The notes below the pieces were generated by a model. It was not told the origin of the DNA. It saw only the letters and a list, made by a program, of their open reading frames with translations, and searched no databases. Below, piece after piece: positions 9,389 to 57,232 of a stretch of DNA of 64,000 bases. This DNA is from Mesostigma viride. Lineage: Eukaryota; Streptophyta; Mesostigmatophyceae; Mesostigmatales; Mesostigmataceae. The DNA is taken from the NCBI GenBank assembly GCA_009746045.1, contig RPFO01000004.1, forward strand, positions 1-64,000, in the 5' to 3' direction. Numbering within the stretch: position 1 is the stretch's first letter; each line of letters opens with the position of its first letter. Position numbers and translations under genes: made by a program.

Positions 9389-10005
9389 AGTTGTGAGGGT
9401 AAGAATGCCACGAATTCCGCCATGGTTCTTGCAGGAAGTTGCCTTTATTAATAATCAGGAAACACAGACGTAAGTCACGTCACTTCCAAGACTGCACGCA
9501 GCACAGACGACAGGGTCGCAGTGCCAAGAGAACGTGCACGCAAGAACTAGCGTCCCGGTGTGACCAAGTCACTCATATAGCTTACTAGGGACGCGTCCAA
9601 GTATTCAGCTGCACTGTCACAGCTGAACTGTCAATCAATTGATTACACAGACTCTGGCACGCCTTTGGCGCGCAGATCTATCAATTGTCCATACGGCTAG
9701 TCCTGTGGACCTATCCGTACACTAGTCAGCATCAATTGTCTCATAGGTCCTGGCGCGCTACAGTGCGCCTACCTATCAATTGACCATCAAGTCCTGTACA
9801 AGTCCTGTCAACGTCCTGCGGACTATCAAAGTGACACTTGTACATCCTGTGTCCGTACGCGCCCACAGTGGCGCGCCGGGTACTGTCGGCACAGCCTAGG
9901 AAACGTCATAACTTTTACGTTCCTTAACCAAATGAGGCGTTCAAGGTGCCGTTGGAAAGAGCGTAACAATCTCTATCCATCTAACGTAAATCCTTTACGT
10001 TAACT
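9389..10005 (-). repeat. Element D 3' LTR
   Basis: 617 bp, pairs with 16600-17216. Plus-strand ends are AGTTGTGAGG and CGTTAACT. On the minus strand it carries AATAAA near 9447, a candidate polyadenylation signal. Confidence 0.95.
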
Positions 10006-10447: not shown

Positions 10448-10456
10448 CGTATTACA
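10448..10456 (-). promoter_or_regulatory. Element D complement of its own primer-binding position
   Basis: The minus-strand RNA reads TGTAATACG here, exactly complementary to CGTATTACA, the first nine internal bases after the 5' LTR (16599-16591). Its last base would pair with the first base after the LTR, where a minus-strand primer 3' end must sit. It hangs from the base of a potential hairpin (CAATAG...CTATTG enclosing CCTGT...ACAGG). Confidence 0.55.
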
Positions 10457-10492
10457 ATAGTTTGCCTGTCATTCTCTCAACAGGGGTCTATT

Positions 10493-10514
10493 GGCGCCCG
10501 TCTTACGGCGCCCG
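10493..10514 (-). repeat. Twin CGGGCGCC boxes of element D
   Basis: On the sense strand GACGGGCGCC occurs twice, separated by GTAA. Matching twin boxes lie at the same distance from the T-arm-like hairpin in G (32447-32469) and H (63968-63990). Confidence 0.7.
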
Positions 10515-10954: not shown

Positions 10955-13900
10955 TTAGACAGCTTGCTGAGATGGGTCCATCAGAGACTGAAGAACCTTG
11001 TATTGCACTGCTGCCTTCTGCACTAGCTTGGTCAAAGCATCAGCAGGATTGTCAACCCCAGGGATATGCTCAATATTGGCCAAGGAGGACAACTCCTTAA
11101 GAAGGAGATAATCCAAGTCCCTACTTCTGGCCATCTGCCTGTGCACAAACTGCACCATCCCCATGGAGTCTGTTTTTAGAAGAGTGGTAACCTGAAGTGG
11201 CCAAGGAGTGTTAGAAGTCATCTGATGAAGCAACTCCTTCAGATAAAGGCTTGTGTGAATGCCTTCACAAATAGCCCTGCATTCTGCCACATCACTGCTG
11301 ACAGCCACCCGTTTGTGCAGGCGACTAAACCAGCTCACCAAACTCCCCAGGCCTTCCTGTCTGAGCACAAAGAGCCCTGCAGCCCTGCCCCTGACCTTGG
11401 AGACCTGCCTGCTGTCCATTGAGCTATCCACATACAGCTCCATGCAAATGGGTTGTGATAAATCCACTGCAGACAACAGAATGCCAGATGAAGCCCTGAC
11501 CTGATCAGCCACCTTGGCAGACCCTAGCTCCACCAGCATGTCATCAGGCAACCTGGCTATGACCATAAGGTCTGGCCTGGAAATGCCTGCCACCCAAGCA
11601 ACCATGCCCCTCACCATGGGACACAGTGCCTGTGTGATGGTTGGAGGAAGCTTGCTAATGAGGGTCTCTTGATAGTCATTGCCCCCCACCAGCAGCATAC
11701 GCCACTCCCCCCTTCTTCACCAGTGTGGCCTCCATGCCCACAAACAGCAGAGGCTCATTCTCCACCTGCCATTGCTCCCTACCCAGAGGAAACTTGGACT
11801 TAATGATGGAGATCAGCTCCTTAAGCCACGACGTGGGAGCTATCAGATGTAGGTCATCCCCGTGCAGCGAAGCATACACTGGCAGGCCTTCCCATTGCCC
11901 CAGAAACAGACAGGGGTCTACAGGAGAGACCTTCAAGTTGCAATGCTCCTTCAGGAAACGGTTGAGAGTCTCCCTCCAGATTATTGGACTTGACCTCAGG
12001 CCCTCCAGGCCCTTGAGGATTTTAAGGAACTCCGTGTGGATGTCCCTTTTCCATACAGCAGGCACCCTAACATAGAAAGGCGTCTTGCCCTCCCACTTTT
12101 CCTGTGCCACATCTGCATCACCCTCCAGAAATGCCCTCTTGAAGTCTATCACCACTGAGCCATAGTCCAAGCCCTTGTTGAGAAGGCCTAGAAAGACACA
12201 CAGCAGCAGCCTCCAAGTATCATGCAGCATGCCAGGGGTATACAACTCCTCAGCAGTGCACTCACCAGTACCCTTGAACTCATTCAGCACTGGCCTGACA
12301 TGTGGTACCTTGACCCCGTCCACCTCCTTCATCTTGATGACAAACTTGAGCTTGAGTAGACGTCGTGCAGGAGGCAGGTCATTGACAGGTTCCACGCATT
12401 TCTTGGAGATCCAGTCCTCCCCAGATTTAATCAGACCCAGTGTGACCTGGGGACACATAATGGGAGAGGACATGAGCTTCACCAGGCCTTGGTAGTTGAT
12501 AGGGCTGTGTCCAGCAAGTGAGTGAGGACCAATGCCCAAACTGCTTGGATGACTAGCAGCTGGCAGTATGAGGTCATCAACCAAGGGCTCCTGCCCCTGG
12601 CACACTTGCACACGCTTAACCGTCCTGGTTACTGCACGTGATAGGTGAGTGGTCCTGAAATTAATCAGTGGGACCTGACCAGCCCCTTCCTTAGTCAGGA
12701 GAGAGGACGTGATCACTACCCCATCCTGGCATAGGAAATTCTGCCCCAGAAGAGCAGGTCCTTGATAGCCCTCCAAGACACAAAAAGCAGTGTCCTGTCC
12801 AAGGATAGGAATGAATACCTCACCCAGTACCTTCACGTGTACCCCGCCACTGAAGTCAGACACAAACTGATAGCTGGGTTCAGACATGCTGTACCCTGCT
12901 GCAGCCCTGGTCCCAATAATGGAGACCTGAGAATTAGTGTCTACCTCTAAGGCAGTGTCCAGCCCCAGATTGCCATGCCACCTGAGCTTGGCTACCTTGG
13001 GCTGCTTCTTGGCCCTTTGTAGAGCCCCAATCAATCCAGCCAAACTTGTCCCCCTGGGCTTGGTTAGTGCCTTGGGCTTGACAGTTGACTCCCCAGCTGT
13101 TGACCTTGCAGCCTGTTCAACAAGTACCTCTGCAACCTGGCCAGGGCTGACAGATTCCCCTGCAACAGATGTGGTCGTTGCGTCAGTGATGTCACCTGGG
13201 ACCTGAAAATCCTGCAGATCCTGTGAGCCTTGTGCCTGACTGCCCTCATTCATCAGGTTAGGCTTGACATATGACCAACTCAGCCGGTGTACATGCTTTG
13301 GTTCGTCCTCCATGCTGACCAAGCATGCGTGGCTAGCTTCATCAACCTGGGTAACCACCCCAGGACTCCAGCTACCACGTTTGCCATAAAGGCTAGGTTC
13401 CTTCCAAGCTAGGACCTTCTGACCCACTTGTGGCTCCAGCATCTTCCAACCCCGGTCCTTCTCCCTCAGCTTGGCAAAGGTGACATGTGCAGCATGTTTC
13501 CAGCCCTCCAGCACATGTGGTGGGCACAGGCCATGATATAGACCCATTGGGCTGACAGCAACTCCATCATAGTAGAAGTTAACCCTGCTGTTCAGCTGCT
13601 GCTCCACGTTCCTCAGCCATGCACTCCTGACAAGTGCAGGTGCAGACAAGGGTACCCAGTCTTCAGAGATGATCAATTTCTTGACCTCCTGGATTGCCCT
13701 CTCGATAGCACCCTGCTGCCCATGAGCCTCCCTAGGTGTAACCAGCAACTCAGGAAGGGTAGGATCACCCTTGAGATGCTGAAACTGCATGTCCACCTGG
13801 ATCCTTGTGGTAGGAAACTTGGCTCTTACATTCTGCAGGGCAGCCAGCAAGTACCTGTTCTTCATAGAAGGTAAATGCTCCAGCACCTTGTATTTCGTGT

Positions 13901-14438
13901 ACCTGTCCACGCACACCAACAGTTGCATGCCCCTGATGTGTTGGATATCACACTGCAGATCACCAATGCTCTGAGGTAGAGCTTTGGCATGTGATTTCCT
14001 GGGCTTGTTGGAGGACAACTGGCACTTACACCGTGAGGCAGCTTGCTGACACGCCTTAAGAAGGGGTGCCCTGCCCATACGGAAGGCAAAGTTGTTTGAC
14101 AGAGAAGTGGCATGCCCAAACATGTTGTGGATTCGGGCACCCAACTCCTGGTACACAGAGGAAGCAGTCCCTGGCACAGTCAGGACTGTGCTGTCAGGTT
14201 GTCCAGCATCACCATGCTGACTTCCATCCTGTTCTGACTCAGAGCCTGAGTCACCCTGCTCATGCCCAACACCTGGACCGCCAGCAGGGACCACATGCAT
14301 ACCACCAGAGGCCTTCACACCCCTCTGTGGTTGTACATTGGTTTCTCTCAAAATGAGAGGTCCACCCTCGTGCCCAGCACGAGGATGCATAGGGTCAGAC
14401 ATACTTACAGCTGCATCAGCTGTCAAGGACGTCTTCAT
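10955..14438 (-). CDS. Element D Pol: integrase-protease-RT-RNase H, one frameshift
   Basis: Starts at the ATG ending at 14438. Residues 100-140 carry an HHCC-like region (HNMFGH...CKCQ). The integrase core has GDLQCDI (D164), QVDMQFQ (D216) and GAIER (E246), with 29 residues between the second Asp and Glu and no DNG motif. A retropepsin-like domain follows at about 495-575: LEVDTNSQVSII, then GEVFIPILG and PALLGQNFL. The RT has VIDFKRAFLEGD near 765 and HGDD at 859-862 (11864-11853). A one-base insertion in a G run near 11700 moves RT-RNase H into the next frame, which ends at 10955 with RNase H motifs LYVDSSMD, DVAECRA, KTDSMG and DLDYLLL. Confidence 0.9.
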
Positions 14439-16590: not shown

Positions 16591-16599
16591 TGTAATACG
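16591..16599 (-). promoter_or_regulatory. Element D primer-binding position (non-TGG)
   Basis: Sense CGTATTACA directly follows the 5' LTR, where a primer-binding site is expected. It does not begin with TGG and does not suit a tRNA CCA end. It is complementary to 10448-10456 of the same element. Confidence 0.55.
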
Positions 16600-17216
16600 A
16601 GTTGTGAGGGTAAGAATGCCACGAATTCCGCCATGGTTCTTGCAGGAAGTTGCCTTTATTAATAATCAGGAAACACAGACGTAAGTCACGTCACTTCCAA
16701 GACTGCACGCAGCACAGACGACAGGGTCGCAGTGCCAAGAGAACGTGCACGCAAGAACTAGCGTCCCGGTGTGACCAAGTCACTCATATAGCTTACTAGG
16801 GACGCGTCCAAGTATTCAGCTGCACTGTCACAGCTGAACTGTCAATCAATTGATTACACAGACTCTGGCACGCCTTTGGCGCGCAGATCTATCAATTGTC
16901 CATACGGCTAGTCCTGTGGACCTATCCGTACACTAGTCAGCATCAATTGTCTCATAGGTCCTGGCGCGCTACAGTGCGCCTACCTATCAATTGACCATCA
17001 AGTCCTGTACAAGTCCTGTCAACGTCCTGCGGACTATCAAAGTGACACTTGTACATCCTGTGTCCGTACGCGCCCACAGTGGCGCGCCGGGTACTGTCGG
17101 CACAGCCTAGGAAACGTCATAACTTTTACGTTCCTTAACCAAATGAGGCGTTCAAGGTGCCGTTGGAAAGAGCGTAACAATCTCTATCCATCTAACGTAA
17201 ATCCTTTACGTTAACT
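16600..17216 (-). repeat. Element D 5' LTR
   Basis: 617 bp, pairs with 9389-10005 and appears identical by eye, so D is very young. Followed by the duplication CTGGC (17217-17221). Confidence 0.95.
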
Positions 17217-32096: not shown

Positions 32097-32409
32097 CCAA
32101 CCCTTTCTTCTTTTGGAGCTGGACCAGCTTGAAACAAGCCTAACCTTGCTTGTGCCCACTCAGCCACAGACCGCTTGGTCCCTTGGGGTTGATCAGACCT
32201 GATAGGGCCCAGGGTCCTGCCTCCTTTTGGGTAACAACATATACGCCCTTGGACCAGGCTAGGTGTACTGGCCAGTGAATCAGAGGTCACCCCAGGTTAT
32301 CCCCTGACCCCTTGGTCAGCTCCCAACCTTTCCTTGGGAACTTGGTGTTAGATTAAAGTCAAGGCACATTACCTAGTCCAATGGCTGGGATTAAAGGATG
32401 CCAAGAACG

Positions 32410-32418
32410 TATTATTGT
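32410..32418 (-). promoter_or_regulatory. Element G complement of its own primer-binding position
   Basis: Sense ACAATAATA is complementary to TATTATTGT, internal positions 3-11 after the 5' LTR (39280-39272 on the minus strand). One mismatch at position 2 separates it from a further match at position 1. It lies just past the CGGGCGCC boxes, as in D. Confidence 0.5.
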
Positions 32419-32446
32419 GAGTTCCTGATCTTTCACAGTTATCACA

Positions 32447-32469
32447 GGCGCCCGTTCTTATGGCGCCCG
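32447..32469 (-). repeat. Twin CGGGCGCC boxes of element G
   Basis: Sense CGGGCGCC occurs twice with ATAAGAA between. The surrounding 35 bases differ from H (63966-64000) at only one position by eye. Confidence 0.7.
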
Positions 32470-33102: not shown

Positions 33103-36100
33103 CTATGGCCGCCCGTGTAAGGGGTCCATGAGCCCACGGAGCAGGGGGTACTGCCTCTCCGCCTTCTCCTCCAGCTTGGTGAGGGCATCTGCAGGGTTGT
33201 CCACACCAGGCACATGTTCAATGTGAGCTAGGTAGGACATCTCCTTGAGCAACAAGTAGTCAAGGTCCCTGCTCCTGGCCAGCTGCCTGTGCACAAATTG
33301 CACCATGCCCATGCTATCAGTCCTCACCAGTGTGTGCAGCTGCAACCTACAGGAAGCCACTTGACATAGCTGGTAGAAGAGCTCCCTCAAGTAAAGAGCA
33401 GTATGCAGCCCTTCACAGATTGCCCTGCACTCAGCAATATCACTGCTGGGTGTAACCCTGTTCTGCAACCGACTGTACCAGGTAACAAGTGAGGTGTGAT
33501 CTTGCTCCAGGGTAACTAATGCTGCTGCCCTGCCCCTGACCTCTGTGACCTTCCTATTATCCATAGAACTGTCCACATAGAGAACCATGTCAAGGGGCTT
33601 GTACAAATCCACAGGACCCAGTATAGAGGGGGAGACATCATGACAGCCTGCACCACACTCTCAGCACCCACCTCAACCAGCTGGGAATCAGTAAGTCGAC
33701 TCAAAACCAGCAAGTCAGGGGCACATATACTTGCAAGCCATGCCAGCATGCCCCTGATGGTAGCACACCTAGCCTGCGTGATGGGCTCCTGCAATGCATC
33801 TACAATCTGCTGTGGGTAGTCCTTACCACCCTCCATCCTGATGAACCACGAGCCCTTGGCTTGGAACAACGTAGCCTGCATGCCACAGAAGACCATAGGC
33901 TCATTCTCCACCATGTGCTGTATCTTACCCAGCTCAAACCGCTTCTGGATCTTAGCCAAGACAGCCTCAACCCAGTCTGGTGGACCTATGAGATGCAGGT
34001 CATCACCATGCAGTGAGGCAAAGACAGGAAGGCCATTGTGGGACCCTTGGAACAAACAGGGATCCACTGGAGACACAGAAAACCCACAAGTATTCTTCAA
34101 GAATTTCTCTAGGCTCTTTCTCCAGATAATGGGACTGGACCTGAGACCTTCCAACCCTTTCAGAATTCTCAGGTACCTGGCCTTTATCTCTGCTCTCCAT
34201 ACAGCAGGTACAGTCACAAAGAAAGGAGGGATATCTCTCCAAGTCTGCCTAGCCTGATCTTGGTCACCCTTGAGAAAAGCCCTCTTGAAATCAATCAGCA
34301 CAGAGCTATAGGGCACACCCTTAACCAGAAAAGACAGAAATATACACAGCAGAATCCTCCACGTGTCATGCAGCATCCCTGGAGTATAGAGCTCCTCATC
34401 TAACAACTGGCCAGTGCCATGATACTCGGTTACAACTGGTCTGACATGTGGCACCTGGACACCATCTACCTCCTTGAGCTTGAGGACAAACATCAATCTG
34501 AGCAGCTGGTGAACTTCTGGCAGCTCATCCACAGGTTCTGCACAGTTGGAAACTATCCACTCATGCCCAGAAGCAACAAAGCCAAGAGTCCATGCCTTAG
34601 CCATCTTGGGGCTTTGCATCATCTCGACTAGCTGGCGCCAGGGAATAGGACTGTGAGCAGCTATCTGGTACCTGTTTACCCCTAACTGCCGTGGATCAAA
34701 GGTGGTTGGGATTATCAACAGGTCCTCAGCTATGGGCTCCTGACCTTGAGGACCCTCAGCTGGCTGACTCCTAACAGCCTTCACCGCCACTGCAAGACCC
34801 TGGGAATAGTGATATCTTTCAAGGGGGAGGCTGCCCCTGCCTTCTAGTGCCAACTCATCAGAGGTCAAAGTAACCCCTGGCATGCACAAGAAGTTCTGAC
34901 CCAGAATGGCAGGCCCCTGATAGCCCTCTACCACACAGAACGTGGTGGGCACCCCTAAGATAGGCACACTCACTTCCCCAAGGATCTTCATGGACACCTT
35001 TCCTGAGAAATCAGACACAGCAAGGCAACTGGGATGGGACATCTGTAAGCCTACAGCATCCTCTTCCCTGATGACAGACACCTGTGAGTTGGTATCTACC
35101 TCCATTGTAGCTGCCCAGCACGACCCCCACCCCGTGAGCTTGGATACCTTGGGATCATGTTTGCTGCGCATGAGTGCTCGGATGACGTCCGCCATGAGAG
35201 GCCCCCGGGCCTTAGGTGGCTGCCCCGTCCCCTCTGGCCTTGTGACAGTTGCTTCAGCAGCCTCCTCCTGCTCGTCATCTTCCAGCAGGGACAGACCATC
35301 ATCCACCACCAGAGGATTGTTAGCTGCTGCTGCCTGGCTCTGGCCTGGCTCCTCAACCCAGCTGGGAGGGCCTGGCCCGTCTGCAGGCCAGATTGCATGT
35401 GGCCTTCTTTCCTTGACATGAGCCCAGGACAACCTGTACACGTGCCTTGGATCCTTTTCCAAAGCCACCAGGCAAGATCTGTTAGCTTCTTCCACACGAG
35501 TGACAACCCCATCCTGCCACTTCCCCCGCTTGCCTGGAATAGATGGTTCCTTCCACATCCTGACCTTCAGCCCCACCTGAGGCCTCAGCACATTCCAGTT
35601 CTTGTCCTTACGTCTCAGCTGGGCAAATAACCTATCTGCCTTCCTAAGACTGGCCTGCACCACGTTCTCAGGCAACAAGCTATACTGCAGGGCCAGGGGA
35701 GAGACAGCCACACCATCAAAGTAATAGTTAACCCTGTGGTTCAGCTGCTCTTCTATCCCCTTACACCAGGCTGCCCTCTCTAAGGCAGATGCCACAAGTG
35801 GCACTGACTCTGCTGCTAGCACCACTGTCTTCACTTCACGTATGGATCTCTCTACAGCCCCTTGCTGCCCATGACTCTCCCTGGGGACTACTACCAGCTT
35901 ACAAGGCAGCTGGTCCTGATGCTTGAGCAAACAGTCAAACTGCAAGTCTGCCTGCACACTCTTGCACACCCCAAAGCCTGGGATCAGGGCCTTCATACCC
36001 AACAACAAGTGGTGCTCCTGCATACCAGGCAGAACGTCTATCAGCCTGTATCTGCTGAACCTGTCCACCCCCCAATATATACAAGCCCCTGATATGCTGG

Positions 36101-36624
36101 ATATCCATCTGGATGTCGCCACGCTCCCTAGCAGGCTCCCTAGCATGGGACTGAGGTGGGTGAACAGCATTCTCCTGGCAACCACAGTTCTCAGCAGCAG
36201 CCTGGCAAGCCTCCCACAAAGGCTCCCTACCTAGCTTCCAAGCAAACATTGCTGCCTGCCCAGAATGCCCAAACATGTGATGCAACCTATGGCCAGCCTC
36301 AGCATAGCTCAGCACTCTGTCAGTACTGACCTGGCGAGACGTCTGAACCGTGTGTGGGGACACATGATCCACTCCTGAGGTTCCAGGGCTTCCCTGCAGG
36401 CCGTCCTGACGCCCCAAGTCAGGCCCTGCACCCTGGACCGCTCCAGGCCCTTCCAGCAAGGTCCCTTGGCCCTCCAGGCCAGCACCTGCTGGAGACCCAC
36501 CACCTGCATGAGGCATAGGGAATTCAGCTGCAGCATTGTTATTGCAATCCAGTGGAAGAACAACATCTTTACACCCTTGGTGCTGCACAAGGGGCACACC
36601 CCCGTCCTTATGTACATCCAGCAC
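33103..36624 (-). CDS. Element G Pol: integrase-protease-RT-RNase H, two frameshifts
   Basis: Read in three frames: 36624-35935 (linker, HHCC-like region HHMFGH...CGCQ and start of the integrase core, GDIQMDIQHI), 36185-33516 (rest of integrase, protease, RT) and 33612-33103 (RNase H). Integrase: VQADLQFD and GAVERSIREVK. Protease: MEVDTNSQVSVI with the active-site codons at 35096-35088, and AILGQNFL. RT: LIDFKRAFLKGD and HGDD at 34010-33999. RNase H: LYVDSSMD, DIAECRA, RTDSMG, DLDYLLL. Protease lies between integrase and RT, as in the other members. The shifts near 36070 and 33610 make this copy probably inactive. Confidence 0.88.
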
Positions 36625-39256: not shown

Positions 39257-39282
39257 GAAGATGGAAAGGAGACAATAATAGG

Positions 39283-39881
39283 AGTTAGAAAGAGCTCCCA
39301 ACGTATGTGAGCTCTTGGTCTTTCACAGCACGGCTTAGCCAATGTTGCAAGGCAGCAACCTTAAATCTATGCACCAGGCCACGACCGCAGTGGGCACTTC
39401 CACGACCAAGGTGGCACCCACGGCTCGTGCTTTCCGAGATAGCTGGTCATCCCCCATGACCAAGCTATATCCTTTGTGTTGTTCCTCGTTCCCATCGGCG
39501 TGACGAGGCACGTGCAGGCGTGCAAGCAAATCCACAACGTCCACTGGCATCAGTGCAGAGCCAGGACGCACTGGATTTGCCTAGACTCTGCAACCTAGGA
39601 AGTACAGGACCTGTCACAGGCCTGCAAGGTCTAGTATCCTTGCAGCCCTGTGCCAGTTCCAGTACCCCACCAGTCACAGGCTGCTGCTCCTCCTGGACTA
39701 CGTGGACCACAGTCACGTGATAGACAGGCTAAGCCTGTGCAGGGACGTCCTGCCACGTGTCCTGTCCGCTGTACCAGAGGACTGCACCCTAGTCGGCCAC
39801 GGATGGCTAGGACTTCGGGACTTCATATCTTTCTTGTCCCTTGTCTGTTTCAGGCGGTCAGCACGGCGTTGGAAAGGTCTT
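39283..39881 (-). repeat. Element G 5' LTR, inner part
   Basis: Pairs with 31455-32050. It is broken by I after GTCTT (39877-39881). The remaining 51 bases of the LTR are at 46046-46096. Confidence 0.92.
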
Positions 39882-40226
39882 AGTTGAGTAACTCTAGAGC
39901 CCTAGGATCTGGCTCTAAGTTCCCCATGTCCGTCCGCACGCCTTCCGCTAGCGTCCGCTAAGCCGCCGGCTATAATCCGGCGGTCCGATGCGGTCGACCG
40001 GTCTAAGGGCGGCGCCTAGGGCCGGCGCCACCTAGGCCCCAGTCCGGGGCCTTATCCGGGTCGGTACGGACAGCTAGTTTGTCCCACGGTTACGGCTAAC
40101 CGGATAGGGTTTGCTGGCTAAGACATAAACCAGTGGTGGGCCAGCTCCGACAGCAGTTCTCTGTGTTCACCTTATCCCAAGCTCAACGTGACCGACCGCC
40201 ATAGCTGAGCCGGTCGGGCTTTAACT
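39882..40226 (+). repeat. Element I left LTR
   Basis: 345 bp, AGTTGAGTAACTC...GGCTTTAACT. Very GC-rich in the middle (GGCGGCGCC...GGCGCCACC). Pairs with 45696-46040. Confidence 0.95.
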
Positions 40227-40238
40227 TGTATTCATAAA
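40227..40238 (+). promoter_or_regulatory. Element I primer-binding position (non-TGG)
   Basis: TGTATTCATAAA directly follows the 5' LTR. It is perfectly complementary over 12 bases to 45344-45355 in the same element's 3' untranslated region, and it lacks the TGG expected for tRNA 3'-end priming. It lies only 8 bases before the gag ATG. Confidence 0.65.
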
Positions 40239-40245
40239 AATCCCG

Positions 40246-43032
40246 ATGGCTTCCGGTACACGGAGCCGCACGGGCGAACACACAGATACGCCAAGTGGCG
40301 AGGCCGCAGGGACCGTCCTGCCACGCTTTAGTGCGGACGAGGCCACGAGGTTGATGCAAACCCTCGTGGCGCAACCTGAACTGGCCAAGCAGTTCAAGCA
40401 TCTGATGCTTGCTGCTGACGATGCACTGAATCGCGGCCCTCTCAAGCAAACGGAGGTGCCCGCGGATCTACCTGCCGACTATACGGCGGACGACGCAGCA
40501 GATTTTCTAGCTGCTCTCAAGCGTCTGCGCGATGGACGCGCAGACAAAGATTCGGAGCTGATTGGCAAGTTCCGTGCAGTATTCTGCAGTACAACAAAGC
40601 ACCCAAACATTGCCAATCTAGTTCGCATTGCGGACGACAACAAACAAACCTGGGAAGTTTTTTACAACGGTCTAGATGCCCACTTGTCGCGGTCTAAGGA
40701 AGAGGCCGACGAGCAAGCCTTCAACGACTTCGAGGGCTATGCAGTTAATAAGGCAAATTTGCCCGGGGCTGCACGTGATTTCCAGGTCTTCGTGCACAAG
40801 CACAAGCTGCTAGATACTCTCAAGCCCATTTTCCTGTGCAATCGATTTCTCAAGAAATGCGACCTGTCGTCGGATGTGCATCTGACCATAGCGACGGAAC
40901 TCAAAAAGAAGAGTGCCGTCAGTTTCGACGAGGGCATGCTGTATTTGATCTCATGCTGCTTCAAGAGTGCGCAGTCCAAGCCGGCTGCCTCGGCTGCTCT
41001 GCCATCCCTGCGCAAGGTGGATGCCGGCGCGTCTTCTTCTTCAGGCGCAGAGGCTCCAATTACGCGGTCGGAGCTTACGGCCATCCTGAAAAAGGTCGTC
41101 GGCCACGGCAACAACGGGGGCCAGCGAGGGCGCAAGCGCGGGCATGGTGGCGACGCCAAGCAGGGTGATAATCCCCCGGCCAAGCGGCAGCAGGGGGCGT
41201 CTACTGACCGCAAGCAACGCTGTGAGCGCTGCTTCGGACGTCGCCATGTCCGGGATGACTGCCGAGTTCGCCCGGACCTGGAGCTCGAGGACAACCTTTG
41301 CCGCAAGTGCCACGACGTTCTGCGTGGTCACAGCGTGGAGGCGTGCAAGGCCAAGCGCATCGTCGTCCACGGCACACGCGAGGAGTGGGCAGAGCGACGG
41401 GCAGCACGAAAGTCAGGTGAGAGCACGCTCGATACCCCTTCTTTTGCTCAATGCGTCACGCTGAACCGGGCCGTCGTAGAGCCTGACGTCGTTCCTAAAA
41501 GCAACGTGACTGCATCCTCTGTCTCATTCCGTGATGTGCTCACGCAATCCGTTGATGCTGCTCTGGCTCTGTCGCGCCAGGATCACGTGCTTCCTGAGCA
41601 CGGGTCTACAATGCGTGACCTAAGCAATGTGGTGTCTTCTAGGTCGGGTGTGTACAACGCCGAGCGACCAAGCACTACTGCAGCACCCCAGCTAGATACT
41701 GGGGCGGTTGGGCCTATGAGGAATGTTGTGACAGTGCAAGAGAATGCTGGGCGGGCAGATGTTCTCGGTACACACCACCCTAGTGTGGATCTTCACATTG
41801 GCAAGGTGCTCACACGGGCGGCCTTTCGTGCAGCCTCTGAAGCTGCCCAGTTAGCCAATGTCACTACCCCAGTAGTCACCCCACCTGTTGAGAATCCTGA
41901 CAATGCCACTGCACCTCAGGCTGTCACCCTGAAACTGTTAGCATACCAGATGCACCGTGCATACGGGCATGAGGCCCAAGCCGAGGTAGAGGGGGCACAC
42001 ATGTTGGGGGCACCTTTATACAACGAGCTGAAGAATGTGCGTGCTCAGTGTCCTGCCTGCATCAAGATCAGGAAGAAGTCGCGTAGGCGGCATGCCAAGA
42101 CTCCACCCTTGGAGCGAGGGTACCTTGTGGGGGATGTCATGCACATGGAAGGGGGGGACACCTATTTCATAGTCAAGGATAGGTTCAGCAAGGCCACCTA
42201 CATTGAGCCGCTGCCTCACATGTTTGAGGCTGACCTGCACAGGGCTATCAAGATCAGCCTGGCTTTCTTTCATCCCGTAGTGGAGCTCATGCTAGACCAG
42301 CAGTTCCGCTGTGTGCAAGGTTTGCCGGGGATGGAGGCCGTGGTCATCGTGGGGCGTGAGGATCACGGCAATATGGGCATGATAGATCGCACTGTAAGCT
42401 ATGTCAAGACTGTGGCAGCCAAGCGACAGGATAACCCACATGGCAAATCCTACGCGGTCAAGACGGCGTGGTGCAAGGAGCTCATGCATGTGTGCAACCA
42501 TAGGCACGTGCTTGATGTCAAGGGCTTTGGGCTAGTCACGCCTCGGGGGCTGTCAGCGGGCACCTACTCACCCGAGGTAGTAGAGGCATACCAACAGCAT
42601 CTACAGGATACCGCCGCCAAGCTGCGGCTCAAGGATGCCACGCTGCCTGATTTGTCTAGCGCTTTTGAGGTCGGGCAGTTGGTCATGTTCCACAAGGAGA
42701 GCTCGCCCAGCGGCAAACGGGGCACCATGCAGGGGCCTGGGGCCATCACAAAGTTAGACTGGCCGCTGCGGGTCATAGACATAGAGTGGAATGATCGGGT
42801 GTATAGGGTACCATGGGCATCGGTGGCAGGCTATAAGCAAGGGGATAGCATGGAGAGTGAGCTGGCAGCCAACAGGGCACTGGGGTGGGTAGTGAAGGAT
42901 AATGCGCCTGTCGTAGCATCTGAGGTGGTACCCCACGGGTCGCTCCCAGGGGCAGACACAGCTACACCCCCCCCTCCCCTGGGCCCCAATATGACCCCGT
43001 GGATGGGTGGGATGAGGATGGGGTGGGTTTGA
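40246..43032 (+). CDS. Element I Gag-integrase polyprotein
   Basis: 928 aa from ATG 40246. Residues 1-300: helical capsid region. From 326: two Cys-His knuckles, CERCFGRRHVRDDC and CRKCHDVLRGHSVEAC. Around 565-620: HHCC-like HRAYGHEA...CPACIKIRKK. Integrase core: GDVMHMEGG (D630), LMLDQQF (D684), then GMIDR, where the usual catalytic Glu is Asp (residue 714). G, H, D and J have Glu there. Whether Asp works is unknown. A basic C-terminal domain follows (VMFHKESSPSGKRGTM). The stop is at 43030-43032, and the next ORF overlaps in the -1 frame. Confidence 0.9.
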   Translation: MASGTRSRTGEHTDTPSGEAAGTVLPRFSADEATRLMQTLVAQPELAKQFKHLMLAADDALNRGPLKQTEVPADLPADYTADDAADFLAALKRLRDGRADKDSELIGKFRAVFCSTTKHPNIANLVRIADDNKQTWEVFYNGLDAHLSRSKEEADEQAFNDFEGYAVNKANLPGAARDFQVFVHKHKLLDTLKPIFLCNRFLKKCDLSSDVHLTIATELKKKSAVSFDEGMLYLISCCFKSAQSKPAASAALPSLRKVDAGASSSSGAEAPITRSELTAILKKVVGHGNNGGQRGRKRGHGGDAKQGDNPPAKRQQGASTDRKQRCERCFGRRHVRDDCRVRPDLELEDNLCRKCHDVLRGHSVEACKAKRIVVHGTREEWAERRAARKSGESTLDTPSFAQCVTLNRAVVEPDVVPKSNVTASSVSFRDVLTQSVDAALALSRQDHVLPEHGSTMRDLSNVVSSRSGVYNAERPSTTAAPQLDTGAVGPMRNVVTVQENAGRADVLGTHHPSVDLHIGKVLTRAAFRAASEAAQLANVTTPVVTPPVENPDNATAPQAVTLKLLAYQMHRAYGHEAQAEVEGAHMLGAPLYNELKNVRAQCPACIKIRKKSRRRHAKTPPLERGYLVGDVMHMEGGDTYFIVKDRFSKATYIEPLPHMFEADLHRAIKISLAFFHPVVELMLDQQFRCVQGLPGMEAVVIVGREDHGNMGMIDRTVSYVKTVAAKRQDNPHGKSYAVKTAWCKELMHVCNHRHVLDVKGFGLVTPRGLSAGTYSPEVVEAYQQHLQDTAAKLRLKDATLPDLSSAFEVGQLVMFHKESSPSGKRGTMQGPGAITKLDWPLRVIDIEWNDRVYRVPWASVAGYKQGDSMESELAANRALGWVVKDNAPVVASEVVPHGSLPGADTATPPPPLGPNMTPWMGGMRMGWV

Positions 43033-45317
43033 CGGGACCTAGTGCACGTAGTGACTCACCTCCTGTGCTAGCCACGGATAATGTGGGAGGCCCGCCTAGC
43101 GTGGCCTCGCCGGAGGGTCAGGGTCCTGCCCATGCGCCTCGCCCACCTAGGGACCTGGCTTCAACGGTCACGGCCTTGTGGCGTGCTCAGGCGCTTAAAG
43201 CGAAAGCTGCATCAGGGGTGGCTCAGGTCAAAACTCTCTCACAGGGGGTCAGGCCGGTTAAGTCAGCCTTGTTTCCTACGTGTAGACCGTGGCAGCTGGT
43301 GGCTGTGGACACGCAAGCATCCGTGTCTATTATCTCTCGTCGGGCAGCCACCCTGTATCCAGTGCTAGAGTCGCCGTACAAATCGGTGACCGACTTTGCA
43401 GGCACTTCGGCATATCAAGTTACCGGGATGGTGGTGCTGCCGGTGTTGGGCATTGACACGCCGTTTCACGTCGTGGATGGCTACGAGGATGTGGCCTTGC
43501 TGGGCGAACCTTTCGTATCATACCCGGGGTTCTCAGTGTCCGCTGACTTGCTGTCAGTCGCGGGGGTGGGCAGCATCCCGCTTCGCGAGTACCACGCTCC
43601 ATTGGGGGTGGTGGTCGGGCAGCCCGGCGTCGTGCGGCGCTTACCGATGGCGGCGTTTTCCACACCGCCGCTCGTCCAGTCCATCATTCAGCCTCAGGAT
43701 TGGCACCCGCGCAGCTTCGGCCTCCACTCACACTCACTGGCGGCGGATAGCCCTGTGACGTGGGAGCAACTTGTCCTGGACTGTCAAGATCCTCTCAAGT
43801 TTGCTTTGTGGCGCGACGCGTTCATTCGAGCCAAGGAGCAGTGGCGAGAGCGCGAGGTCTACCGAGGATTGGAGAGTGTGCCAGCCGGGGCCACGCGGTT
43901 GCGGTTGAAGTTCGTGCTCACCTACAAGCCGGACGAGACCAACTCTTCGGTGGTGTTCCGGGTAAGGCCCGTGGTCACGGAGACGAAGGGGTCCTCCCCG
44001 CTGGACGCCAAGGATCTTTATACCCCTGGGCTCAACCATGTTTCGCATCGGCTACTGACGGTCATCTACTTGGGCAAGCGGAACGCGGGCAAGGACTACG
44101 GGATGTGGTGCGGTGACTTTCAGCGGGCATTCCTCCACAGCGACGCTGGGGTCGCGCAGCAAACATGGCAAGGCACCCGCTACGTGGTGAAGGTCCCGGT
44201 GGTCTGGCAGGATGGCACCATTGGCAGCGAGTATATCGAGCTGTTGACAGGGGTGGAGGGGCTGCAGAGCTCTCCCATCATCTTCCGCATTTCCGCGGAG
44301 GAGGTCTTGCAGAGCTTAGGGGCCACGTACCATCGCGCGGATCCTAACTTCTTTGTGGTCCCCACCGGCGTCCCTGGCGAGCCAGCCCTCTTCGTGTGGC
44401 ATGGCGATGACTTCAAGCTGGTGGCACCTCGCACCTTTGCTACCCAGTTTCTTGCTGCAGTGGCGGCTAAGTTTCCCCTGGGCAGGGCGGTGGATCATGA
44501 GGAGGGTAAACCCGTGGTGTTTTGCGGCGTGCAGTCTACGTTGCAGCGGGATTCGCGTTCTGGCGAATGGGTCATGCACATGCAGGATAGCCGCAACTAT
44601 GTGGTTGACCTGCTGGCCGACCTCCCGTCCCCGCTGTTGGCAACCCATGGGCCCTCGGTTAAGGGCAAGCTCGGGTGGTTGGCGGACACGGTGGCACCTG
44701 ATTTGGCGGTGCTCGCTCGCCTGCCCGATGATGTGCTGGAAGGACTAGGGTCCATTCATGTTCGGCGGCAGCTGGCCATGACGCCCGGCATTGTGCTTCG
44801 TGGGCTCGATTGCTCACAGCCGGTGCACCTCGAGATAGTGACGGATGCTAATCTAGAGACGCGCACAGTCAGCCAAGTGCGGGCCCGCATGGGGGCACTG
44901 TTCTTTATTAGCAATGAGGGACAGCCTGGCATGTTGTTAGATTGGTACTCGCGCTTGCACAGCCGCATTGCCACTAGCCCCAACACGGCTGAATGCCGGG
45001 GCATTGTTTCAGCTATCTCACATGGCATGTGGCTGCGGTACTTGCTGGGTTGGGTATTTGGCTCGTGTGGGTTCACTCTTCACTGGACTAGCACGGTGCA
45101 CACTGACTCACAAAGTTGTTTGGCCTTCCTTGACAATCCCTATGCGCGGTCACAGGACGTTGATTACCTCGTACTCGCTGAGGCGGCCTCCTGCGTCACG
45201 CGTCTCCAGCACATCGCGGATGAACTCAATCCCGCGGATGCACTCACCAAGGAGGCGCGGGAGGCTGCCCCGCAGTACGCAGTGTTGCGCAAGCGCATGA
45301 CGATGCAACACCCGTGA
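42999..45317 (+). CDS. Element I protease-RT-RNase H polyprotein
   Basis: 772 aa in the -1 frame to the upstream ORF, overlapping it by 34 bases; expression by -1 frameshifting is likely (inference). Retropepsin-like domain: VAVDTQASVSIIS (D104, codon 43308), VLPVLGIDTPFHVV and VALLGEPFV. RT: FRVRPVVTETKG, GDFQRAFLHSD, and HGDD at residues 468-471 (44400-44411) where copia elements normally have YVDD. RNase H: EIVTDANLETR, NTAECRG, HTDSQSC, DVDYLVL. Here the two-ORF split falls between integrase and protease, so gag-integrase would be the more abundant product. Confidence 0.92.
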   Translation: MDGWDEDGVGLTGPSARSDSPPVLATDNVGGPPSVASPEGQGPAHAPRPPRDLASTVTALWRAQALKAKAASGVAQVKTLSQGVRPVKSALFPTCRPWQLVAVDTQASVSIISRRAATLYPVLESPYKSVTDFAGTSAYQVTGMVVLPVLGIDTPFHVVDGYEDVALLGEPFVSYPGFSVSADLLSVAGVGSIPLREYHAPLGVVVGQPGVVRRLPMAAFSTPPLVQSIIQPQDWHPRSFGLHSHSLAADSPVTWEQLVLDCQDPLKFALWRDAFIRAKEQWREREVYRGLESVPAGATRLRLKFVLTYKPDETNSSVVFRVRPVVTETKGSSPLDAKDLYTPGLNHVSHRLLTVIYLGKRNAGKDYGMWCGDFQRAFLHSDAGVAQQTWQGTRYVVKVPVVWQDGTIGSEYIELLTGVEGLQSSPIIFRISAEEVLQSLGATYHRADPNFFVVPTGVPGEPALFVWHGDDFKLVAPRTFATQFLAAVAAKFPLGRAVDHEEGKPVVFCGVQSTLQRDSRSGEWVMHMQDSRNYVVDLLADLPSPLLATHGPSVKGKLGWLADTVAPDLAVLARLPDDVLEGLGSIHVRRQLAMTPGIVLRGLDCSQPVHLEIVTDANLETRTVSQVRARMGALFFISNEGQPGMLLDWYSRLHSRIATSPNTAECRGIVSAISHGMWLRYLLGWVFGSCGFTLHWTSTVHTDSQSCLAFLDNPYARSQDVDYLVLAEAASCVTRLQHIADELNPADALTKEAREAAPQYAVLRKRMTMQHP

Positions 45318-45695
45318 GCCACACAGGGTTACGGCTCGGGCGCTTTATGAATACAGCCATAACTCACCCTGTGTTGCTAGCATTCACGAATATCATGGTG
45401 GTAGTTTTTTTGCTTGTCCTGACCATACCCTAGCCACGTTGGACGGTGCCTTGGGCCCGTCGGCGGGTCACTGGTCCTAATAAATGGGTCACCTTTTGTC
45501 TGGTGGCATAGTTGTTTTTTTTCTCGCTACTTATTACATCACTATTCATGTGTGATCACAAGGGCGCGGGTCGATACCGTGGTGATTTTGACGGCCTTGA
45601 GGCCCCCTTGAGTTCCCTACCTTAGAGGGTTTTGTATGGTCTGCATTTGATGTAATTATTTTGATAATTAATCAAAGAACAAAAGAGTGTGTCGG
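45318..45695 (+). other. Element I 3' untranslated region
   Basis: 378 bases without a gene. It holds the hairpin with the primer-position complement (45321-45374), AATAAA at about 45479, and a purine-rich stretch CAAAGAACAAAAGAG (about 45673-45687) before the LTR. Two short inverted stretches and a T-rich run at about 45405-45413 have no assigned role. Confidence 0.7.
45321..45374 (+). promoter_or_regulatory. Hairpin carrying complement of element I primer-binding position
   Basis: Stem ACACAGGGT/ACCCTGTGT (9 bp) encloses a second stem GGCT/AGCC, whose loop reads CGGGCGC then TTTATGAATACA (45344-45355). The 12 bases are the exact complement of 40227-40238. The 3' base of this stretch would pair with the first base after the LTR. 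It begins 4 bases after the stop codon. Confidence 0.65.
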
Positions 45696-46040
45696 AGTTG
45701 AGTAACTCTAGAGCCCTAGGATCTGGCTCTAAGTTCCCCATGTCCGTCCGCACGCCTTCCGCTAGCGTCCGCTAAGCCGCCGGCTATAATCCGGCGGTCC
45801 GATGCGGGCGACCGGTCTAAGGGCGGCGCCTAGGGCCGGCGCCACCTAGGCCCCAGTCCGGGGCCTTATCCGGGTCGGTACGGACAGCTAGTTTGTCCCA
45901 CGGTTACGGCTAACCGGATAGGGTTTGCTGGCTAAGACATAAACCAGTGGTGGGCCAGCTCCGACAGCAGTTCTCTGTGTTCACCTTATCCCAAGCTCAA
46001 CGTGACCGACCGCCATAGCTGAGCCGGTCGGGCTTTAACT
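45696..46040 (+). repeat. Element I right LTR
   Basis: 345 bp with one difference from the left LTR. Followed by GTCTT (46041-46045). Confidence 0.95.
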
Positions 46041-46096
46041 GTCTTTCCAAACTGCATCCACTTGTCTTAGCATATTGCTTGCCCAAAATGCTAACT
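46041..46096 (-). repeat. Element G 5' LTR, outer end
   Basis: The I duplication plus the last 51 bases of G's LTR (TCCAAACTGCATCC...CTAACT), followed by AGAGG and then F coding sequence. Confidence 0.9.
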
Positions 46097-50910: not shown

Positions 50911-51984
50911 CCCATTATGTTTTCCTTTCAGGTTGAAGGCTAGCGACTTCAAGCCTGATCCTGCCCAGCCAGTAGGAGACTGACTCCAAGCTGACTGAGG
51001 TGCTGAGCAACTGACACCCATACTGCAACATCTGGACTGAAAAAGATGGGCCGCCCCAGAACTCGTGCAATACTTCTGGTGGCATCAAGTTTAGCTCAAC
51101 ATGCCCGGGGAGTTCCTCCTCCTCGCGAGCTCACAAGGGAGATAGCTATGCCTGTCTGCCTATCCAGGGAGTGCATCACCAGCCAAGAGAGCCACTGAAA
51201 AAAAATGCCAAGGTAAACCGTTTAAGAGGTTCCATATGGTTCCATCATCATCGCCCGCTCAGAAAAAAAAACACCCAGCCAGGCTGGGTCAACTGAGCTC
51301 AGGTCACCTGCAACCTGAGGAGTGACAGTAGGCAGGTTTATTGCACCCTGCACTGTCCATGTTGCACCTGCACAACATGTGAGGACCAGCCACCCCTGCC
51401 CTGCGCAGTGGTGGCGCAAGTCCTAGTGACAGGTGACAGGAATATGACATCCTGGACCTGTCCACGTTGCACCTGCACAACGTGTGTGGACCAGCCACCC
51501 CTGCCCTGCACAGTGGTGGCTGAAGTCCTGGTGACAGGTGACAGGAATATTGCATCCTGCACCTGGGCTGATCACATTGTACTAGACAACATGACAGCAC
51601 CCATGCCTTTACTGCCACTGAACAGTGAGGCCAGGTGGCCCAAGAGATCCACAGTAAACTGGGGTCCTGGGTAACCACCTGTCAAGGGAGCTTTGACCCT
51701 CCACTTGAATGGGAGGCACCTGAGCCACTGAGCTCAAGGCCAATCCACCAAGGCATACAACCCTAGTGGAGAAAGAATGTGAGATACATCCCCTGCCCAC
51801 CTATGAAGGTGGGCATCACGAAATTCCATGGGTGTGAAAAAATCAAAACAGATTTTATTGGCATAGGGCACGCAGGTGCATAAAAACAGACTCCAACCAA
51901 CCCCTTACTGGAAGCACAACCTGCCCCTTGGACCTGCCCAAGGGGTACTGGGTTACCTAGGCGGCCCTGGTGAACAGGACCCTG
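50911..51984 (-). other. Element J 3' untranslated region
   Basis: 1074 bases without a convincing gene. It contains a 105-bp tandem repeat (51343-51575), a perfect 8-bp hairpin GCCCACCT-ATGA-AGGTGGGC (51795-51814), and a sense-strand AATAAA (about 51856). No T-arm-like hairpin or twin boxes were seen. Confidence 0.6.
51343..51575. repeat. 105-bp tandem repeat in element J
   Basis: Two full units and part of a third. GTTGCACCTGCACAAC begins at 51361 and again at 51466; both are followed by CCAGCCACCCCTGCCCTG and GACAGGTGACAGGAATAT. Units differ at several sites. Confidence 0.8.
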
Positions 51985-54513: not shown

Positions 54514-56829
<2,316 letters not shown>

Positions 56830-57207: not shown

Positions 57208-57232
57208 CGTACTATTGCTTCCAAGCGCTTTC

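Follow-up and report, generated by a model that had tools for sequence, protein, structure and literature searches.

The clade of Ty1/copia-like retrotransposons to which element I of the streptophyte green alga Mesostigma viride belongs probably encodes its own minus-strand primer in the 3' UTR, a reading to which we assign a probability of about 0.7 on the strength of sequence comparison. In element I, the bases that immediately follow the 5' LTR are complementary to a stretch near the element's own 3' end, designated here the antiPBS, and PBS and antiPBS change together between families. A broader and slightly less secure proposal, which the sequences still favor, is that the whole algal copia-like clade primes from its own 3' UTR, with a three-way junction presenting the putative primer in the D1/D3 group and with release by cleavage, perhaps in trans. 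The window, the whole 64,000-nucleotide stretch analyzed, belongs to contig C1647, and genome-wide searches covered the 440-Mb assembly. The labels D1, D2, D3, D3b and D5 and the types A to F and J were coined in this analysis, type A being D1 and type B being D3.

Element I is bounded by two LTRs that are identical at 344 of 345 positions, with the termini AGTT..AACT, and is flanked by the 5-bp TSD GTCTT (39877-39881 and 46041-46045). The TSD and the LTR pair together fix the LTR edge and thereby identify 40227 as the first internal base, so that the PBS begins right after the 5' LTR, just where the initial annotation had placed it (Table 1). ORF1 encodes a gag-like part with zinc-knuckle-like cysteines followed by integrase-like motifs, both recognized by eye, and ORF2 contains protease-like, RT-like and RNase H-like regions; neither ORF1 nor ORF2 gave a Pfam match. 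Among 7,995 candidates scored, the element I pol had only two relatives, both of them Mesostigma viride proteins. It is 37% identical to the D1 pol over 420 aligned positions and 34% identical to that of D3 over 512; across these three elements, pol identity over the aligned parts is 34-50%. RVT_2 profile matches, lying below the curated cut-off, were obtained for D1 (E 3.5e-6) and D3 (E 1.1e-4), and none for element I. The usual Ty1/copia gene order is gag-protease-integrase-RT-RNase H. By eye, the integrase-like motifs precede the RT in the three elements and a protease-like DTxxS lies between integrase and RT (42999-45317, 11676-14438 and 33516-36185), a position that differs from the usual copia order. 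Element I itself sits within the 5' LTR of D3, the remainder of which covers approximately 46041-46096 and is followed by the D3 TSD AGAGG (by eye; 39877-46096). The element I LTR also contains two GGCGCC palindromes 13 bp apart (40011-40029 and 45825-45843), possibly a dimer or kissing signal.

Table 1. Positions of the LTRs, reading frames, PBS and antiPBS sites of the copia-like elements in the window.
Feature	Position	Strand	Remarks
5' LTR, element I	39882-40226	+	345 bp, AGTT..AACT
PBS, element I	40227-40238	+	TGTATTCATAAA; first 12 internal bases
ORF1, element I	40246-43032	+	928 aa
ORF2, element I	42999-45317	+	772 aa
Possible hairpin, element I	45321-45374	+	right after pol stop; outer stem 45321-45329 / 45366-45374; fold of 45315-45400 alone
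GGGCGC motif, element I	45338-45343	+	abuts antiPBS on its 5' side; also in D1, D3, D3b and J
antiPBS, element I	45344-45355	+	TTTATGAATACA; proposed primer, 3' end would be 45355
3' LTR, element I	45696-46040	+	paired with 5' LTR
D1 LTRs	9389-10005 / 16600-17216	-	TSD CTGGC, exact
D1 PBS	16591-16599	-	CGTATTACA; next to LTR
D1 antiPBS	10448-10456	-	TGTAATACG; complements PBS
D3 PBS	39272-39282	-	CCTATTATTGT; TSD AGAGG by eye
D3 antiPBS	32408-32418	-	ACAATAATACG; complements PBS at 10/11
D3b PBS	57208-57217	+	CGTACTATTG; offset from LTR unreadable in this copy
D3b antiPBS	C1647:64018-64027		CAATAGTACG; just outside the window

The PBS of element I is the exact complement of its antiPBS over all 12 nt, and the initial annotation, which had reported this match, gave both sites correctly. 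Past base 20 of the internal region, no other anchored complement of at least 7 nt was detected. The annotation had put the chance of such a match at about 2 in 100,000, in close agreement with the 2.3e-5 matches expected from composition in the last 500 nt of the element; furthermore, dinucleotide shuffles of the 700-nt 3' region reached 12 nt in 0 of 2000 cases (maximum 11). The PBS lacks TGG, as had been pointed out, and no TGG start was found. Within family I the two sites hardly vary: among 100 listed copies (of 206 matches in all) recovered by a search pattern that left the PBS letters free, 99 carry the exact PBS, the antiPBS is kept in all 14 copies that have the 3' region among 20 fetched, and the 40 copies scored, out of 268 candidates, show no difference across the 121 bp surrounding the 3' site. 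Consequently, covariation within this family is uninformative. One copy (C524:187608) carries a one-sided change in the PBS, its 3' site being intact. The two-stem hairpin described in the initial annotation was recovered in part. When 45315-45400 was folded alone, the minimum-energy structure had the 9-bp outer stem together with an inner stem (GGC/GCC) that is shorter than that annotation implies; this fold is not exceptional (z -1.33, with 23 of 200 shuffles folding equally well), and in a fold of 45300-45420 the outer stem was absent and the antiPBS partly paired.

D1, D3 and D3b carry PBS and antiPBS sites of their own (Table 1). The 9-nt match of D1 was reached by only 1 of 2000 dinucleotide shuffles. 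The window copy of D3 forms 10 of 11 pairs, with a mismatch at position 2, and two other copies with the 3' site of D3 have the PBS CGTATTATTGT, which pairs over 11 nt. Because of this mismatch, the exact match in the window copy is only 4 nt and was reached by 1946 of 2000 shuffles, in a test that set the D3 LTR/internal ends about one base off. D3b is 73-82% identical to D3 over aligned DNA pieces; position 5 of its PBS is C, with G opposite in the antiPBS, and the offset of the PBS is unreadable because the end of the 5' LTR is deleted. Two gypsy elements of the window, D2 and D5, have PBSs starting with TGG and CTGG, and their anchored matches to their own sequence do not exceed 6 nt. D3b begins at the edge of a long array of 6-bp repeats (55734-56771), both strands of which contain long open frames. 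Two tandem 105-bp repeats (51353-51562) lie towards the 3' side of a further copia-like element, whose PBS was not found; the GGCGCC sites listed include none at these repeats.

Across the genome, antiPBSs complementary over 9-12 nt from the first post-LTR base were found in I, J, A, A2, B, B2 and E, that is, in each family with both ends readable; in five families that were measured, 271-442 nt separate the antiPBS from the 3' LTR downstream of it. Family J, whose pol is 46% identical to that of I, has the PBS TGTATTCACA and contains TGTGAATACA soon after the pol stop; A2 and type E each pair over 11 nt. The LTR edges were set by exact TSDs in I, D1 and E (CTGCC in E), by a TSD read by eye in D3, and by LTR alignment in J, where the flanking repeat is imperfect, and those of A2, B and B2 rest solely on the shared AACT end. 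The LTR of type E (L054:661-1304) ends in CTAAAT, not AACT. Position-guided fetches supplied the 5' ends of A, A2, B, B2 and E. A PBS was seen in 7 of 15 position-guided windows, E and D having been found via the predicted sequence with up to two changes allowed, and in 3 of 3 further windows of A and 2 of 5 of A2. Type D showed a PBS-like sequence in one of two windows and was not counted, because no LTR pair exists at that sequence; no 5' end was found for type F. None of seven predictions set down before the fetches was confirmed, six windows being without the predicted site and the seventh holding a copy with unrelated changes, an outcome that counts against the self-primer reading. An old B-like copy (C1:441862) has unrelated changes at both sites.

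Genome-wide, 1,466 places matched a pattern built on the D1/D3-group 3' domain and none matched its reversed form; the 5' pattern gave 926, its reversed control yielding 6. Position pairing took 100 listed of the 1,466 3' matches together with 63 of 100 listed 5' matches (those on C1-C136). Among the 100 listed 3' elements, 39 had a 5' site at 5-9 kb and 61 had no listed partner. Since the 5' pattern restricts the PBS to CGTAYTAYWS, this approach tests matching only inside that limit, within which 38 of the 39 position-paired elements match over 9-10 nt. The other is a mis-pairing on C70 (8,550 bp), dropped because its 5' site has a nearer 3' element. All 38 matched elements have T/A or C/G at position 5 as fitting, including three B and six B2 copies that differ there.

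Covariation was assessed over nine related types with six distinct antiPBSs. Pairs 1-9 are formed in 81 of 81 cells, and unpaired cells occur only at pairs 10-12 (14 of 27), where pair 10 forms in 8 of the 9 types, pair 11 in 4 and pair 12 in 1. The set contains 20 two-sided changes, at 7 of the 12 pairs, and no one-sided change among paired cells. The covariation score was 0.523, compared with a shuffled mean of 0.179 (0 of 500 shuffles reached the observed score) and with at most 0.190 in slid versions. No shuffle among 500 reached the number of cells paired or of cells with a two-sided change, and 7 reached the number of pairs with a two-sided change; further pair types do not exceed the shuffles, 376 of 500 reaching the observed value. 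The first six bases of the PBS are nearly constant across families (YGTAYT), and positions 7-9 vary between families, always matching the element's own 3' site. Thus, the compensatory changes for which the initial annotation had proposed to look within family I are present between families. It had also suggested that independent variation of the two sites would speak against a functional pairing; such variation was seen in single copies only, namely C524:187608, C1:441862 and the window copy of D3 at position 2, and we read these cases as decay of single copies. A chance match was rejected as the explanation on the basis of the covariation over nine types.

The predicted folds of the 3' domains of D1, D3 and D3b are alike, with a closing stem, a GGCGCC hairpin, a second hairpin, an unpaired antiPBS core and a closing strand. 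In these folds the last antiPBS bases lie inside the closing stem, so that priming would require a rearrangement. Most D3-like types have TGTGA/TCACA as the outer stem of the second hairpin, and type E has AGTGA/TCACT; this stem is missing from the predicted folds of A2 and A3. The loop of the GGCGCC hairpin also complements the closing strand (AAGAACG/CGTTCTT in D3, ATGAACG/CGTTCAT in D3b), which could therefore pair with either of two partners; imposing the pairing with the loop has a predicted cost of about 2.5 kcal/mol. The loop and the 5' strand of the closing stem thus both complement one strand, as though two structures might switch (10448-10513, 32408-32468 and L031:7369-7427). I and J have a simpler version of the domain, with one GGGCGC.

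In the self-primer model, the antiPBS would pair with the PBS in the particle, either on a single RNA or across the two that are packaged. Cleavage might then occur where the duplex ends (after 45355 in element I), with the element's own RNase H as a possible agent, as in Tf1, and the 3' end so created would be extended into U5. The primer may come in trans, from the second packaged RNA, and until strand transfer the cut pieces could be kept joined by the closing stem of the domain. Anchoring at the first post-LTR base, duplex length and the lack of a tRNA-type site are consistent with a Tf1-like self-primer relocated to the opposite, 3' end of the RNA. Pairing fades beyond 10-11 nt, close to the 11 nt that the available text gives for Tf1 (PMC7175516). 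A Tf1-type primer inside the LTR was rejected, the LTRs of five families having no anchored complement longer than 5 nt (longest 3-5 nt, with the D3 ends again about one base off). Counting against the self-primer model, a cut at the antiPBS would sever the genomic RNA, which Tf1 escapes because its primer is 5'-terminal.

This cost does not arise if the pairing serves 5'-3' cyclization, in which the RNA ends are brought together to assist strand transfer or packaging and the primer is a different molecule. Cyclization fits the covariation equally well and has a parallel in Ty1, where, in the accessible part of the published account, a CYC5/CYC3 pair exists and CYC3 likewise lies in the 3' UTR (PMC5454406). 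However, it gives no reason why the complement should start exactly at the first post-LTR base, the position of a primer 3' end, in every family whose ends could be read. Another primer could not occupy these bases simultaneously, and no TGG start is available for one. The anchoring favors a primer over cyclization, which we consider an unlikely, though by no means negligible, substitute for priming; a cyclization role, alone or added to priming, is possible. The initial annotation had proposed either a self-encoded primer or a cyclization signal, and the compensatory changes between families lend support to that pair of readings.

Far less probable is priming by a host tRNA fragment that the 3' site merely mimics. 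Certain plant copia elements are reported, in the portion of the source available, to use half-tRNA priming (PMC6317226), and the near-constant PBS start resembles what a match to a single conserved host RNA would give, but positions 7-9 vary and still match the element's own 3' site, so that several tRNAs would be needed. A better-pairing tRNA, raised in the initial annotation as a possible objection, did not emerge from a narrow test of a single pattern, TATGAATACA before a T-arm-like box, whose one genome match has the two parts two bases apart, a spacing unlike that of a tRNA. A copying by-product or chance inverted repeat without function is the hardest to credit: single copies with one-sided or unrelated changes do exist, but the matched changes extend across families whose pols are 34-50% identical, and the surrounding domain is common to the D1/D3 group.

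How DNA synthesis starts in LTR elements without a tRNA site is still a question in several lineages, Skipper and GalEa among them. If the self-primer reading is correct, a primer encoded at the 3' end and covarying with its binding site would offer a new solution to tRNA-less priming, self-priming would proceed from the RNA end opposite to that used by Tf1, and the element would be freed from host tRNAs. A 3' UTR complement anchored at the first post-LTR base is a simple sequence test for any such element. In the openly available literature on self-priming, CYC5/CYC3 and Mesostigma retrotransposons, subscription papers being mostly outside the search, we found no description of a 3'-encoded primer in an LTR element, and no literature match for a self-priming retrotransposon PBS in a green alga.

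Several known systems share features with the Mesostigma elements. Many dictyostelid Skipper elements have neither TGG nor a complement within the left LTR; they differ in being Ty3/gypsy elements with a polypyrimidine site, and the accessible description of them mentions no 3' partner. Fungal GalEa elements are copia elements without a tRNA PBS that have complementary sequences at their Conserved Hairpin Site, but there, as far as the available text describes it, the second sequence, 12-41 bp away, lies immediately behind the 5' LTR instead of at the 3' end (PMC5445492). Self-priming has been predicted for the TAR lineage of plant Ty1/copia elements (Houba, Osr-1), according to the portion available (PMC6317226). 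Ty1 offers the likeness of a 5' site that pairs perfectly, over 14 nt, with the 3' UTR; in the accessible text, however, CYC5 is separate from the tRNA-binding PBS, whereas the 5' partner in Mesostigma is the PBS position itself, without TGG (PMC5454406). In Tf1, Tf2 and Tj1, as the available accounts present them, an LTR-adjacent PBS pairs with the element's own RNA and not with a tRNA, and the Mesostigma elements share a PBS that lacks TGG and is paired to their own RNA from the first post-LTR base. Yet Tf1 is a Ty3/gypsy element and those of Mesostigma are Ty1/copia-like, and the primer of Tf1, Tf2 and Tj1 is described at the 5' end of the RNA, whereas the candidate primer of the Mesostigma elements lies in the 3' UTR.
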